Positions 1 through 40,779 of a stretch of DNA of 64,000 bases are shown one piece after another. The stretch covers positions 1 through 64,000 of the forward strand of contig MEOG01000105.1 in NCBI GenBank assembly GCA_001769125.1, in the 5' to 3' direction. Below the pieces are notes generated by a model. It searched no databases, was not told the origin of the DNA, and saw only the letters and a list, made by a program, of their open reading frames with translations. Position 1 is the stretch's first letter, and the number at the start of each line of letters is the position of its first letter. This DNA comes from Bacteroidetes bacterium GWF2_35_48. GTDB lineage: Bacteria > Bacteroidota > Bacteroidia > Bacteroidales > GWF2-35-48. A program made the position numbers and the translations under genes.

Positions 1-99
1 CTCGTTTTTTTCTCGAAGATAAAATATTACTTTTTAGAAGAATACTCTGAATGTCCCTTTTTATCAACAAAAGATAGTTTATGGACAGACACTAACTAG

Positions 100-275
100 T
101 CCATAAAGTCAATGTTTGAGGCAGAATATTCGAATTCAAAGCCTGTACCGCTTGCGGGAGTTTACGAAATAATAAAAATTAAGCGTCCTGCAAGGCGATA
201 TGATTTATTTTTATTAAGAGCATAACGCAGCTACTTGCCTGCCAGCAAGCAGGTCGGACATTATAGACAAACACT
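100..275 (-). repeat. Divergent copy of structured trailer element (family R1)
   Basis: On the minus strand this element starts with AGTGTTTGTC about 9 bases past the terminator of the tRNA-Phe gene. It keeps the family box CTGCGTTA followed by a CTC, here at 217-230 on the plus strand as AAGAGCATAACGCAG. It then has a 10-base perfect inverted repeat (TAATAAAAAT at 170-179, ATTTTTATTA at 207-216) around a small inner hairpin CG-CCT-TGC-AGG-CG. Stem sequences differ completely from the other copies but the architecture is the same. The exact right end near 100 is uncertain. The rest of the first 330 bases shows no gene. Confidence 0.5.
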
Positions 276-2037: not shown

Positions 2038-2090
2038 AAGTGCTTGCAAGAAAACAGCAATTGTTGTGTTACGCTGTGCAAAACTGTAAA
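2038..2090 (+). repeat. Truncated copy of structured trailer element R1
   Basis: Directly after the pit stop codon the plus strand reads AGTGCTTGCAAGAAAAC and then TGTGTTACGCTGTGCAAAAC. This aligns to the first third of the full R1 copies (AGTGTTTGCAAGAAAAC, then TGCGTTACTCTC). The element breaks off in the central hairpin, 1 base before the stop of the convergent response regulator gene. It is in the same orientation as pit. Confidence 0.6.
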
Positions 2091-9107: not shown

Positions 9108-9563
9108 ATGGCGGGAAAAATTAATATTAAAAATAAAAAAGCTTCTTTTGAATTTGAATTATTAGATGTTTTTAGTGCAGGAATTGTGCTAACCGGAACA
9201 GAAATAAAATCAATAAGATCAGGAAAAGTAAGCTTTGTAGATCCTTTTTGTATTATTAAAGACCGGGAAATTTGGGTTAAAGGAATTCATATTGCAGAAT
9301 ATGAAAACGGAGGTTATCAAAACCATGAGCCCAAGCGCGACCGCAAATTACTTTTAAACCGAAAAGAAATCAATAAAATTGAGAAAAAAATAAAAGATAA
9401 AGGATTTACTGTTGTCCCTATCCGCATATTTATTGATGAAAATGGACATGCCAAATTAGAAATAGCACTTGCCCGAGGTAAAAAACAATTTGATAAAAGA
9501 GAAAGCCTGAAAAAACAAGATGCTAAACTTGAAATGAGCAGACAGGGAAAGAGAAACCTGTGA
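9108..9563 (+). CDS. smpB: SsrA-binding protein SmpB
   Basis: A 151-residue protein that binds tmRNA and delivers it to stalled ribosomes for trans-translation. It has the OB-fold core with [21 protein letters not shown], the conserved HIAEYENGG segment and the basic tail [17 protein letters not shown], which in SmpB becomes ordered in the decoding centre. Its length is normal for the family. The last codons run into a copy of the R2 repeat, so CTG-TGA of the gene end is also part of that element's outer stem. The tmRNA gene itself is not in the window. Confidence 0.97.
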
Positions 9564-9609
9564 GAATATCCAACGCACTTGCCCACCCATAATACCTCAC
9601 AGGATTGCT
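9554..9609 (-). repeat. Stem-forming trailer element R2, copy a
   Basis: On the minus strand it begins AGCAATCCTGTGAGGTATT, 13 bases past the stop of the M16 peptidase gene, and ends CTCACAGGTTTC, which overlaps the last codons of the convergent smpB gene. The arms CCTGTGAG and CTCACAGG pair perfectly. Other copies are at 28025-28092 and 40571-40629. Confidence 0.65.
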
Positions 9610-23472: not shown

Positions 23473-23620
23473 TAGTGTTTGCAAGAAAACGCCAACTACT
23501 GCGTTACTCTCGTCATGAAAACAGTCATTTACAAAAGTAAACTCCTTGGTTTTCATGACTTTGAAAGCCTTGTATTTGACGTTTTCTTTATCAAACACAT
23601 AGTTTTCTTGCGGACACTAA
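23473..23620 (+). repeat. Structured trailer element R1, copy B
   Basis: A 145-base core differs from copy A (40635-40779, opposite strand) at only two positions. The plus strand begins TAGTGTTTGCAAGAAAACG and ends GTTTTCTTGCGGACACTA, so the ends form inverted repeats of about 15 bases. The centre is a perfect 11-base stem (GTCATGAAAAC/GTTTTCATGAC) enclosing the inner hairpin TTTAC-AAAA-GTAAA. The family box CTGCGTTACTCTC precedes the centre. It lies in the 430-base gap after tRNA-Leu; the rest of that gap holds no gene I recognise. Confidence 0.85.
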
Positions 23621-26002: not shown

Positions 26003-26029
26003 ATTATTTTAAATGAATAATCAATCACT

Positions 26030-26051
26030 TGAGTTTTCTTGCTGACACTAA
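26030..26051 (-). repeat. End fragment of trailer element R1 at the dnaA stop codon
   Basis: On the minus strand, directly after the dnaA stop TAA, 22 bases starting TTAGTGTCAGCAAGAAAAC are identical to one end of copy C (34898-34919). The rest of the element is missing and the dnaA terminator follows. Confidence 0.65.
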
Positions 26052-27491
26052 TTACAGTTTCAGTTTATTTTCAATTTCGTCAATGTAAACTCTGAATGTT
26101 TTATCTGTATCAATAAGATTATTGACGGTTTTGCATGCATGCAGCACAGTCGCATGGTCTTTCCCTCCAATGCTGGAGCCGATAGTAGCGAGTGAGGCCT
26201 TGGTAAGACTTTTTGCGAAAAACATTGCAATTTGTCTTGCCTGAACAATTTCACGTTTTCTTGTTTTAGAAGTGAAAATATCCATGGGAAGATTGAAATA
26301 GTCGCAAACAATTTTTTGTATGTAATCAATAGATATTTCTCTCTTGGTATTTTTAACAAGCTTGTCTATCATTTGTTTTGCAAGCTCAAGTGTAATTTCT
26401 TTTTTGTTCAGTGTTGACTGGGCAAGCAGAGAAATAAGTGCTCCTTCGAGTTCGCGGACATTGGTTGTTATATGTGAGGCAATATATTCTGTAACATCCT
26501 GTGGAAGCTCGATTCCGTCGTTATAGGTTTTCTTTTTCAGAATCTGAATTCTTGTTTCATAATCCGGAGTCTGAAGATCGGCTGCTAATCCCCATTTAAA
26601 ACGGGAAAGAAGTCTTTGGTCTAAACCCTGCATTTCAACAGGTGCTTTATCGGAGGTAAGGATAAGTTGTTTTCCAGACTGGTGCAGGTGATTGAATATC
26701 TGGAAAAATATATCCTGTGTTTTTTCTTTACCTGCAAATTCCTGAACATCGTCAATAATCAATACATCTATCATCTGATAGAAATGAATGAAATCGTTTC
26801 TTGTATTATTTCTTGATGCTTCTGTGTATTGAGTTTGGAAATTGTGAGCCGTAACATACAGCACTGTTTTTTCGGGTAATTTTTCTTTAACTTCAATACC
26901 AATAGCCTGCGCAAGGTGTGTTTTTCCGAGACCAGAGCCACCATAAACCAATAGAGGATTAAAAGCAGTTCCTCCAGGGCTGTTTGCAACAGCATATCCT
27001 GCAGAACGAGCTAAACGATTACATTCTCCTTCAATAAAATTTGCAAAAGAATATTCGGGATTTAGCTGTGGATCTACGGTTAATTTTTTTAATCCTGGAA
27101 TAATAAACGGATTTTTGATACCAGGGTTGTCATCAACATTCAGAGGAATGGAGACAGGTTTGTTTTTAAGTTCTTTTTTAATGTTGGCAGATCCAGGCAT
27201 TTTTACAGTATAGGGCTGCTTACTGAAATACGGGTTGTTTTCCATAACAACATTGTATTCGAGTTTTGTATCGGCACCTAATTCTTTACAGAGCGTTTTT
27301 CTCAGTAAATCTATGTAATGTTCTTCAAGATATTCGTAAAAGAATAAACTTGGCACCTGGATTGTAAGAACTTTATTTTCTATCTTCAGGGGGACAATTG
27401 GTTCAAACCAGGTTTTAAAGGTAATGGTTTGGACATTATCCTTTATTATCTGGAGGCAGTTTCCCCATATCACTTCATGATTCTTACTCAT
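26052..27491 (-). CDS. dnaA: Chromosomal replication initiator DnaA
   Basis: A 479-residue initiator. Domain I (1-85) has WGNCLQIIKDNV, and a variable linker covers about 90-140. The AAA+ domain has Walker A GGSGLGKT at 184-191 and Walker B VLIIDDVQ. The sensor region contains LILTSDKAPVEMQGL, then RLLSRFKWGL. The C-terminal DNA-binding domain IV (about 385-479) has the helix-turn-helix and signature IGGKDHATVLHACKTV. The upstream gap carries repeated DnaA-box-like nonamers. A terminator and an R1 fragment follow the stop. Confidence 0.97.
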   Translation of the reverse strand: MSKNHEVIWGNCLQIIKDNVQTITFKTWFEPIVPLKIENKVLTIQVPSLFFYEYLEEHYIDLLRKTLCKELGADTKLEYNVVMENNPYFSKQPYTVKMPGSANIKKELKNKPVSIPLNVDDNPGIKNPFIIPGLKKLTVDPQLNPEYSFANFIEGECNRLARSAGYAVANSPGGTAFNPLLVYGGSGLGKTHLAQAIGIEVKEKLPEKTVLYVTAHNFQTQYTEASRNNTRNDFIHFYQMIDVLIIDDVQEFAGKEKTQDIFFQIFNHLHQSGKQLILTSDKAPVEMQGLDQRLLSRFKWGLAADLQTPDYETRIQILKKKTYNDGIELPQDVTEYIASHITTNVRELEGALISLLAQSTLNKKEITLELAKQMIDKLVKNTKREISIDYIQKIVCDYFNLPMDIFTSKTRKREIVQARQIAMFFAKSLTKASLATIGSSIGGKDHATVLHACKTVNNLIDTDKTFRVYIDEIENKLKL

Positions 27492-28024: not shown

Positions 28025-28092
28025 AAACCTGTGAGCCTGCCTTCAGGGATACCCTACGCACAGGCTTTCCCACAATACCTCATAGGATTGCT
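28025..28092 (-). repeat. Stem-forming trailer element R2, copy b
   Basis: On the minus strand it starts AGCAATCCTATGAGGTATTG, about 13 bases after the stop of the exported protein gene at 28106, and ends CTCACAGGTTTAC. The arms CCTATGAG and CTCACAGG pair with one G-T wobble. The interior shares GGGAAAGC, TGTGCGTAGG and TATCC with copies a and c. Confidence 0.65.
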
Positions 28093-30508: not shown

Positions 30509-30742
30509 ATAAACAAAGATTAATGCAAATTTGGTTTCCAAAGTAGTAATTTTTTTATTTTATAAAAAAATATTTTATGATAATATCATCAACAGAATAC
30601 GCTTATAGTCCTCAATTGAGTACAAATTGGCTGTTTATAAATTGTTGTGGGAGGGTAAATGGTATGTGGTAATTGAGATTGGCAGTCGTTAGTCTACAGT
30701 CGGCAGTCGGCAGTCAGTAAGTCGGCAGTCAGTAAGTCCGCA

Positions 30743-30875
30743 GACTGTAGACTGTAGACTGTAGACTGTAGACTGTAGACTGTAGACTGTAGACTGTAGA
30801 CTGTAGACTGTAGACTGTAGACTGTAGACTGTAGACTGTTGACTGTTGACTGTAGACTGTTGACTGTTGACTGTT
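30743..30875. repeat. Heptamer tandem repeat (GACTGTA)19
   Basis: Nineteen consecutive 7-base units: 13 GACTGTA, then a mix of GACTGTT and one GACTGTA. Related words (GGCAGTC, AGTCAGTAAGTC) extend to the left as far as about 30683. The unit length is not a multiple of three and no gene spans it. It lies 110 bases upstream of the mrdA start. The rest of the 480-base gap holds only a possible promoter (TTTTG, 18 bases, TAGTTTTA at about 30917-30947). Confidence 0.95.
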
Positions 30876-30987
30876 GACAATAATAAAAGAAGCCTGTTCA
30901 AAACATTGTGAAAAAAGTTTTGTCGGAGCGAATACCAAATTAGTTTTATGTATAATTTCAACACCGGAAATTTATTATAAAAAATAA

Positions 30988-34897: not shown

Positions 34898-35066
34898 TTA
34901 GTGTCAGCAAGAAAACTCATGTTTTTTGTTTGACAGTGTCAGTGCTTGATAAGAAAACGTCAAGGTCAAGGCTTTCGAAGACCTGAAAATCAGGAGTGTA
35001 CTAATGTACATGACTGTTTTTCAGGTCGAGAGTAACGCAGAAATTGACGTTTTCTTGCAAGGACTA
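34898..35066 (-). repeat. Structured trailer element R1, copy C
   Basis: This is a diverged full-length copy between the two FISUMP genes. Read on the minus strand it starts with the stop codon TAG of FISUMP 2 itself (TAGTCCTTGCAAGAAAACG). It has the same architecture as copies A and B but with compensated stem changes: GACCTGAAAA (34980-34989) pairs with TTTTCAGGTC (35018-35027), and the inner TGTAC (34997-35001) pairs with GTACA (35006-35010). The outer stem GAAAACGTCAA/TTGACGTTTTC is perfect. An extra 25 or so bases are present near the distal end. The boxes GAGAGTAACGCAG and AAGGCTTTCGAAG are conserved. Confidence 0.85.
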
Positions 35067-35735
35067 TTTATTTTCTTTTACGCACCTAACAGAATGCATA
35101 GAAATGCTGCTATCGGTTAAACGACCTATCTGAATTTTATCTGCATCTAAAGCTCTGATAAAAACATACGAAATATCTTCCTCTGTTGAAGTAATCCAAG
35201 AGCCCGATATCCCAATAGATTTGTATTCTCCGTCGTTTGTACGCCAGCCTCCTGGTAATGCAGAAAAGCCACTGCTGTTTGTTACTTTTTTATTAGTTTT
35301 TTTCCAACTCAAATTCCCTTTCTCTTTCATAATTCCACCAATTAATTTTCCTGAAAAATCAATTAAAGTAGTATCAACAGAATTGTCAAGAAATTTAGCA
35401 AGGATATTCCATTCACTATCACTTGGCACATGAAATCCGGCAGGACAAATTCCAATTTTTTTTGTTATGGAAAACCAGTTATATAAGCGTCCATACAAAT
35501 TTGAATTGTCAGGATTATTGTTGTAATCGCAATATCCTCCCTGATTTGTCGGTTCTAAAATATTTTCCATAGGCGTTCCGTCTGCAAATTTTGTTGTCCG
35601 AAGATTTTCTTTCATCCAAATCTGTTTACCGATTACTACAGTATTATATGTATTTCCATCAGCATCAGAAACTGTTTGGGCTCTGGCTGAAAAAAATATC
35701 AGAATATAAAATAATAATAACAATAATAATTTCAT
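35064..35735 (-). CDS. Exported FISUMP-domain protein (2)
   Basis: A 223-residue paralogue of the neighbouring FISUMP protein. It has a signal peptide (1-19, ends SARAQ), VVIGKQIWMKENLRTTKF, DGTPMENI, NLYGRLYNWFSI, GFHVPSDSEWNIL, SGFSALPGGWR, SWITSTEE and SVRCVKENK. It is closer to the family consensus than protein 1. Its stop codon is the first codon of R1 element copy C. The FGE-like lipoprotein gene lies 34 bases upstream on the same strand and may be in the same operon. Confidence 0.88.
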   Translation of the reverse strand: MKLLLLLLFYILIFFSARAQTVSDADGNTYNTVVIGKQIWMKENLRTTKFADGTPMENILEPTNQGGYCDYNNNPDNSNLYGRLYNWFSITKKIGICPAGFHVPSDSEWNILAKFLDNSVDTTLIDFSGKLIGGIMKEKGNLSWKKTNKKVTNSSGFSALPGGWRTNDGEYKSIGISGSWITSTEEDISYVFIRALDADKIQIGRLTDSSISMHSVRCVKENK

Positions 35736-40570: not shown

Positions 40571-40629
40571 AGCAAACCTGTTAGGATAGCCTCCTCACCT
40601 GCTTTCTCGCAATACCTCACAGGATTGCT
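40571..40629 (-). repeat. Stem-forming trailer element R2, copy c
   Basis: On the minus strand it starts AGCAATCCTGTGAGGTATTG and ends CCTAACAGGTTTGCT. The ends AGCAA.CCTGT and ACAGGTTTGCT form the outer stem. It directly follows R1 copy A downstream of the WG-repeat gene, so the two families are in tandem here. Confidence 0.65.
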
Positions 40630-40634
40630 AAATT

Positions 40635-40779
40635 GTGTTCGCAAGAAAACTATGTGTTTGATAAAGAAAACGTCAAATACAAGGCTTTCGAAGTCATGAA
40701 AACCAAGGAGTTTACTTTTGTAAATGACTGTTTTCATGACGAGAGTAACGCAGTAGTTGGCGTTTTCTTGCAAACACTA
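40635..40779 (-). repeat. Structured trailer element R1, copy A
   Basis: 145 bases that are nearly identical (two differences) to copy B but inverted relative to it. On the minus strand it starts TAGTGTTTGCAAGAAAACG, 2 bases past the stop codon of the WG-repeat gene. The central stem is GTCATGAAAAC (40693-40703) with GTTTTCATGAC (40730-40740), and the inner stem is TTTAC (40711-40715) with GTAAA (40720-40724). Confidence 0.85.

Follow-up and report, generated by a model that had tools for sequence, protein, structure and literature searches.

Three copies (A, B and C) of a short sequence, in which terminal inverted repeats enclose two conserved boxes and a set of nested helices, are present in the window analysed here, a stretch of 64,000 bp that forms the first 64 kb of contig C105 in a draft genome of 6.0 Mb. 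The locus raises the questions of what kind of element this is, how it came to be dispersed, and why its fold has been kept. Copies A, B and C are very probably MITEs (most of the family being 145–170 bp) with the ends of ISNCY insertion sequences and a core that is phylum-wide and kept on one strand, and they are likely to have been mobilized in trans.

Copy A is a full element of 147 bp on the + strand (40633..40779), with 18-nt terminal inverted repeats and a flanking duplication AAAT. The 5' arm of its outer helix (40664..40676) is a second, degenerate version of the terminal repeat, and the 3' arm (40757..40769) lies partly within the right terminal repeat. Inside this helix are the conserved left box CAAGGCTTTCGAA (40680..40692) and right box GAGAGTAACGCAG (40741..40753), a covarying central stem (40693..40702 with 40731..40740) and an apical hairpin, GTTTAC-loop-GTAAAT (40710..40725), with GA on either side as a tandem G.A. 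Copy B (23473..23619, - strand, 147 bp) has the duplication AGTT, read in the orientation of the element, and copy C (34899..35066, + strand, 168 bp) has ATTT; the TAG stop of the gene at 35064-35735 on the - strand comes from the right repeat of copy C. The boxes, terminal repeats, outer stem, central stem and apical hairpin that an earlier note had described in A, B and C are all present as claimed. All three match a covariance model of the family with E values of about 1e-35, and copy C also gives an echo on the reverse strand, as is to be expected of a nearly palindromic element.

The region at 100-275, for which the same stem layout had been proposed, does belong to the family (97..275, + strand, outer limits by eye), but it is a degraded member with TAGTGYNNGTCCATAA-type ends, of which the left is broken, and its model match is partial, at 160-229 (E = 1.1e-4, model positions 26-95 only). 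To its left, at 1..94 on the - strand, is one end of a multi-copy insertion sequence that by eye resembles the left end of the ISNCY element on contig C133 of the same genome. Two half elements are additional to those in the earlier note. The one at 2038..2075 (- strand) has the right terminal repeat and right box, directly past the stop of the ORF at 631-2037, and the one at 26028..26050 (- strand), where the ORF at 26052-27491 (- strand) stops, consists of the left terminal repeat alone.

Other repeats are also present in the window. A 7-bp unit, AGACTGT, forms a tandem array at 30707-30902, and a second dispersed repeat, ending AATACCTCACAGGATTGCT, is found at 9554-9609, 28037-28092 and 40574-40629, with one copy directly adjoining element A.

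Distribution of the family and origin of its ends

Covariance-model searches of this genome and its relatives place A, B and C in a dispersed family that is larger than had been claimed. A DNA search with copy A finds 57 matching stretches in its own genome, including fragments and reverse-strand echoes, and the model gives at least 130 matches there (E <= 0.001), a lower bound because 150 of the 3788 first-look candidates were scored. The core is present in at least 59 of 198 genomes of the order, the own genome counted, again a lower bound, as 18 candidates at most were scored per genome; GCAAGAAAAC-type ends occur in 23 genomes, 21 of which also carry the core. A scan of named genomes for the apical motif gives at least 113 stretches. 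Among the 80 matches listed, 76 carry Bacteroidota names (Bacteroidales, Flavobacteriales, Saprospiraceae, Chitinophaga and others) and 2 carry Chlorobiota names; two matches (L282, L295) look accidental. One of the matches is in Cryomorpha ignava. Only two of the named hosts, Coprenecus and Cryptobacteroides, suggest a gut source. A blastn search of plasmids and phages with copy A gives no match, and neither does an exact-pattern search of viral contigs for the apical motif. Over the elements in the window and at 8 further loci, no Rfam match attains the gathering score of its family; at relaxed E-values there are weak lines below gathering, some of them over the element at L096 (E 0.7 and 2.2). 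No account of this element was found in a search of the openly accessible literature.

Two types of terminal repeat, TAGTGYNNGCAAGAAAAC and TAGTGYNNGTCCATAA, occur in the family, 16–18 nt in length, and both surround one core, which is exactly 73 nt in 81 of 108 core matches. In copies with the 73-nt core, the 121-nt right part aligns without gaps across the two end types, in which the outer stems are unrelated in sequence. In each the outer helix is formed where the right repeat pairs with a second, degenerate version of the left one. There are 76 pairs of ends of the same type, mostly 145–170 bp apart (range 39–228), and these have identical 4-bp flanks in 50/58 cases for the first kind and 16/18 for the second. 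Taking the own genome and its relatives together, 92 of 116 two-ended elements have identical 4-bp flanks, where shuffled partners would give 19.7 (maximum 32 in 2000 shuffles), and the other 24 have no identical 4-bp duplication. The target consensus is T-ANNT-A; as the A and T are fixed in the target, the length of the duplication is ambiguous at 2–4 bp. One copy interrupts an ORF whose rejoined frame is open over 276 codons. The elements have transposed. The earlier note had named a miniature mobile element among its candidates, a proposal that the terminal repeats and 4-bp duplications support. They are short and non-coding, with terminal inverted repeats, a target duplication and ends in common with an autonomous element, as is the case for MITEs. 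Two unusual members are a chimera on contig C82 (L064), with a GCAAGAAAAC-type left end, a GTCCATAA-type right end and a broken central stem, and a 40-bp minimal element on contig C27 (L082), in which two terminal repeats stand back to back, with the duplication AAAT.

The ends of the elements match those of DDE insertion sequences of the ISNCY family, in their terminal repeats. Full insertion sequences with TAGTG ends and ISNCY transposases are present in five genomes (G125, G086, G047, G038 and the own genome). That of G125 has the left end TAGTGTCTGCAAGAAAAC, a right end with two mismatches, unequal flanks (AAGT, ATTT) and a transposase in two overlapping frames; those of G086, G047 and G038 have ends that are TAGTG...AAGAAAAC variants; and the own-genome copy, at C133, has the ends TAGTGTCTGTCCATAA and the duplication AATT. 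At the own, G047 and G038 insertion sequences the 4-bp duplications lie in T-ANNT-A. All five transposases are recognised by the ISNCY model NF033593, and four score above its curated cut-off of 325, with the own transposase at 331.7 bits and the two-frame transposase of G125 below the cut-off. The two frames are at L119:428-1724 and, as the first frame on G067:C378 is also 171 aa, a programmed frameshift is possible. More distant ISNCY elements have TAGGGTCTG ends with AAAT duplications (L231, L236) or unequal flanks (L246).

No insertion sequence with the end type of copies A–C (GCAAGAAAAC) was found in the own assembly, where the sole full ISNCY copy is of GTCCATAA type; a parent insertion sequence in the same genome is seen only for the GTCCATAA end type. 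About 16 contig edges in this assembly, including 1-94 of the window, bear ends of such insertion sequences, which suggests a multi-copy insertion sequence whose active copies have probably collapsed out of the assembly. Indeed, own-genome contigs break about 60–100 bases inside these ends. Two other candidates were set aside. The ORFs between widely spaced ends at G000:C67:16589-18557 and on C53 include by eye no transposase of an autonomous element, and by eye none is seen among the neighbours of single ends in relatives (L111, L098, L126). Derivation of the core by internal deletion of an ISNCY insertion sequence was rejected because none of eight IS loci has a model match to the core (E <= 0.1). 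Across the 198 genomes, co-occurrence of core and ISNCY does not exceed chance (both in 21 genomes, the separate totals being 62 and 59; odds ratio 1.3, p = 0.41). The possibility raised earlier that a known IS end would explain the element thus holds for the ends, which match ISNCY, and not for the inner fold. The ISNCY-like ends together with the 4-bp duplications point to MITEs moved in trans, and not to Y1/RAYT movement. An ISNCY-type DDE transposase would bind the ends of the elements and so move them.

A core maintained by compensatory change on one strand

The paired changes claimed between A and C are real: GTCATG/CATGAC becomes GACCTG/CAGGTC in the central stem, and TTTAC/GTAAA becomes TGTAC/GTACA in the inner. 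Copies A and B are 99% identical, however, so that covariation within the window is that of A/B against C only; it becomes convincing with copies from across the genome. Folded as single-stranded DNA, copy A is more stable than 200/200 dinucleotide shuffles (z = -5.76).

Among 55 distinct ungapped sequences, 7 column pairs covary at E <= 0.05 under our own tree-based null, in which columns are re-evolved on the tree; 6 of these lie in the drawn structure and the seventh (1-115) can be read as extending the outer helix. As many as all four Watson-Crick pairs occur at one position of a helix: at columns 37/80 the 55 rows include CG in 30, AT in 12, TA in 9 and GC in 3. From the 108 core matches, 64 rows were taken, 55 of them distinct; five false or broken matches, cores other than 73 nt, sequences with N or short flanks, and rows with a 21-bp insert or another replaced arm were left out. 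The apical helix scores poorly in the ungapped frame (paired in 30–54 of 55 rows) because its register differs by one base between subfamilies; it is intact in a gapped, phylum-wide alignment of 26 sequences. These were hand-picked for equal length and diversity, mostly from a set of 77, a few of them false, and one row (L136) has a replaced outer arm. In this alignment 93.6% of cells are paired, 26/39 pairs have changes on both sides, and both-side changes occupy 178 cells against 23–51 in slid controls. RNAalifold arrives unprompted at a nearly identical fold.

Some positions are conserved as mismatches. A G.A beside the central stem is kept in 54/55 rows and an outer-helix G.A or A.G in 53/55, while a second mismatch by the central stem is A.G in 27/55 rows only. 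The tandem GA/GA beneath the apical hairpin is nearly invariant, the outermost apical pair is G.U in 25/26 phylum-wide rows, and U.G is a standing pair at columns 15/103 in 17/26. The unpaired boxes are also conserved across the phylum. The own genome (L016, L017, L062, L076, L150) also has many inserted copies of a palindrome that resembles REP and is about 21 bp long (CCTGCCTTGCCGGTAGGCAGG and variants), mostly at two fixed points in the core, CAAG^GCTT and GGAG^TTTAC.

The constraint is also on one strand. In the orientation of copy A, 29 pairs, counted without the apical helix because of register shifts between rows, have G.T in 113 cells and A.C in 4, and the changes from Watson-Crick pairs are estimated at 18.5 to G.T and 4.3 to A.C. 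The mean RNA folding energy is -44.0 kcal/mol for the + strand and -30.5 for the - strand, the + strand being the lower in 55/55. That the fold has been kept by matched base changes would suggest that the fold itself matters. The stems of copies throughout the genome do covary, and the 7 significant pairs and the one-strand bias bear out the earlier proposal that selection acts on a single-stranded fold. The helices of the core are maintained by compensatory change, on one strand.

The same architecture occurs with other outer stems in further Bacteroidales, referred to here as the other-end type, a label coined in this analysis. There are 56 model matches of this kind (E 4e-22 to 2.5e-6), 55 of them full length, and in none of the 56 was a TAGTG/CACTA end pair found. 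Covariation is seen in 443 cells against 74–115 in slid controls, in an alignment that was fitted to the model and is so biased towards its structure. The outermost apical pair is G.U in 56/56 rows, and the + strand folds better in 47/59. In two of these genomes the apical motif (<=2 mismatches) occurs 43 and 44 times, with some copies in tandem every 120–131 bp. Some cores of this type (L304, L315, L320, L423, L430) adjoin tRNA genes, and their outer stem is different again (GAAGTTTATTTT...AAAAGAAACGA). The core gives the impression of a passenger that has been joined to a variety of ends, and not of the deletion relic of an insertion sequence.

Stop codons and the nature of the folded strand

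Of the 92 duplication-bearing elements, 72 have 330 bp on both sides. The right end lies within 5 nt of the stop of an opposing gene (ORF of at least 100 codons) in 24 of these and the left end in 4 (p = 1.8e-4), and in all 24 right-end cases the rejoined site encodes a protein of unchanged length. A larger, less strict set has a stop at 47/127 right ends and 5/82 left ends. By comparison, 2 of the 184 TAWWTA sites in the window are likewise placed at a stop, and 145 are within genes. Among the TAGTG-like right ends of other species, 9 of 43 are at a stop; of the 85 matches from which these come, 20 have no readable right box and 8 are too short, and right ends alone were used as the left edge is approximate. 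Among 31 other-end copies, 13 have the stop of an opposing gene at a single, constant position of the right arm, and the 3' end of a gene lies no more than 150 nt to the right of 25 copies and to the left of 12 (p = 0.047). Ends of insertion sequences abut a stop in 4 of 24 examined.

Since opposing genes stop at the right ends, host mRNA at most of the stop-codon copies would carry the strand that folds less well. This bears upon the suggestion that the element works as a structured 3'-UTR or as a terminator within the transcript of the abutting gene. Copies do often begin right at a stop codon, 28 of the 72 well-bounded copies within 5 nt, as do the other-species and other-end copies noted above, but the better-folding strand is then antisense. 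In 24 of the 28 it is the - strand that enters the mRNA, on which each G.U of the + strand is an A.C, and in the larger, less strict set stops at 6–150 nt have no orientation bias (right 19, left 18), so that this part of the earlier proposal is improbable. It is more improbable still that these are ordinary MITEs in which hairpins are kept by template-switch correction of imperfect palindromes, with no selection on the fold. Quasipalindrome correction can yield paired changes without selection, and the terminal repeats are palindromic in any case. Such correction should, however, remove mismatches of the kind kept here in 54/55 and 53/55 rows; it is blind to strand, and neither double-stranded palindromes nor template switching would readily account for the strong asymmetry; and the unpaired boxes are conserved as well. 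As the only cause of the covariation it is disfavoured by the kept mismatches and the strand asymmetry.

That the fold acts as single-stranded DNA, as in attC or REP, with the + hairpin the substrate of a transposase, a recombinase or a process linked to replication, is rather unlikely, although it has points in its favour: the fold is strand-specific, some genomes have many copies and clusters, and the placement at stop codons, in which the strand able to fold is antisense to the gene, is reminiscent of integron attC sites. The short duplications, in contrast, point to staggered double-strand cuts, and the standing U.G pair is more RNA-like. The attC boxes, GTTRRRY ... RYYYAAC, occur in order in 1/26 rows on either strand, and identity with attC was rejected. 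The narrower proposal, made in the earlier note, of a REP/REPIN element of a Y1 (RAYT) transposase is exceedingly unlikely. The own genome has 10 PF01797 matches, GGAG stands beside the apical hairpin, and the truncated right half of an element lies about 290 nt from a Y1 gene at one locus (L034); yet the eight Y1 loci examined give no model match (E <= 0.1), which also counts against a single-stranded DNA substrate, and REP/RAYT elements are not known to make a target duplication. Terminal inverted repeats and duplications of 4 bp are at odds with Y1 chemistry. Five of the ten PF01797 matches lie in frames of 153–165 aa (loci examined L031-L038). The Y1 genes are possible partners of the 21-bp palindrome.

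The family is probably one of MITEs with a conserved, strand-specific structured core, a putative RNA. The standing U.G pairs and G.A mismatches favour RNA, and the folded + strand is most likely, with modest confidence, a putative RNA made from the element; single-stranded DNA is otherwise the possible, less expected, identity. The core would be kept because the + strand folds, and the best guess is that the fold benefits the element itself or restricts antisense transcription where genes end. A more speculative reading, put forward tentatively, is that the core is an independent, phylum-wide parasite of structured RNA or single-stranded DNA, which would take the ends of any available transposon, TAGTG ends of ISNCY type here and other long stems in further Bacteroidales, and use the + fold to insert, or to be tolerated, one way round exactly at stops.

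The interior of a MITE is usually seen as filler between ends that bind transposase, and here the interior is the conserved part, with the core unchanged while the ends vary and scores of copies across the Bacteroidota. If the folded strand is RNA, this would be an unlisted class of structured RNA spread by transposition; if it is single-stranded DNA, it would be a substrate of a new type. The one-way placement on stop codons gives a direct handle on which strand matters.

Comparison with known mobile and structured repeats

Integron attC sites have one strand that folds, stems that vary while the boxes persist, and a fixed orientation at stop codons, all of which are paralleled here; unlike attC, these elements have terminal repeats and 4-bp duplications, and the attC box order is all but absent. 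With the ISNCY insertion sequences (NCBIfam NF033593) they have in common the TAGTG... terminal repeats and the 4-bp duplications in T-ANNT-A, but only the ends are common, as the eight loci searched do not contain the core.

Among structured mobile repeats, those of the bcr type are to our knowledge the closest precedent, and bcr1 has RNA structure. The bcr repeats of the Bacillus cereus group are dispersed, 100–400 bp in length and have features of mobility (PMC6542083), and in these general traits they are like the present family. Their mobility is tied there to TTTAT motifs (PMC6542083), whereas the elements here have the terminal repeats of a DDE element.

The bacterial MITEs RUP, Correia/NEMIS and ERIC (PMC2229807), MITECca01 (PMC9769881) and BrickBuilt (PMC4596501) are likewise short and non-coding with IS-like terminal repeats, and a stable stem-loop is reported for several bacterial MITEs (PMC2229807, PMC9769881, PMC4596501). 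The present family differs from them in a core that is phylum-wide, strand-specific and strongly covarying, and that is also found with unrelated ends.
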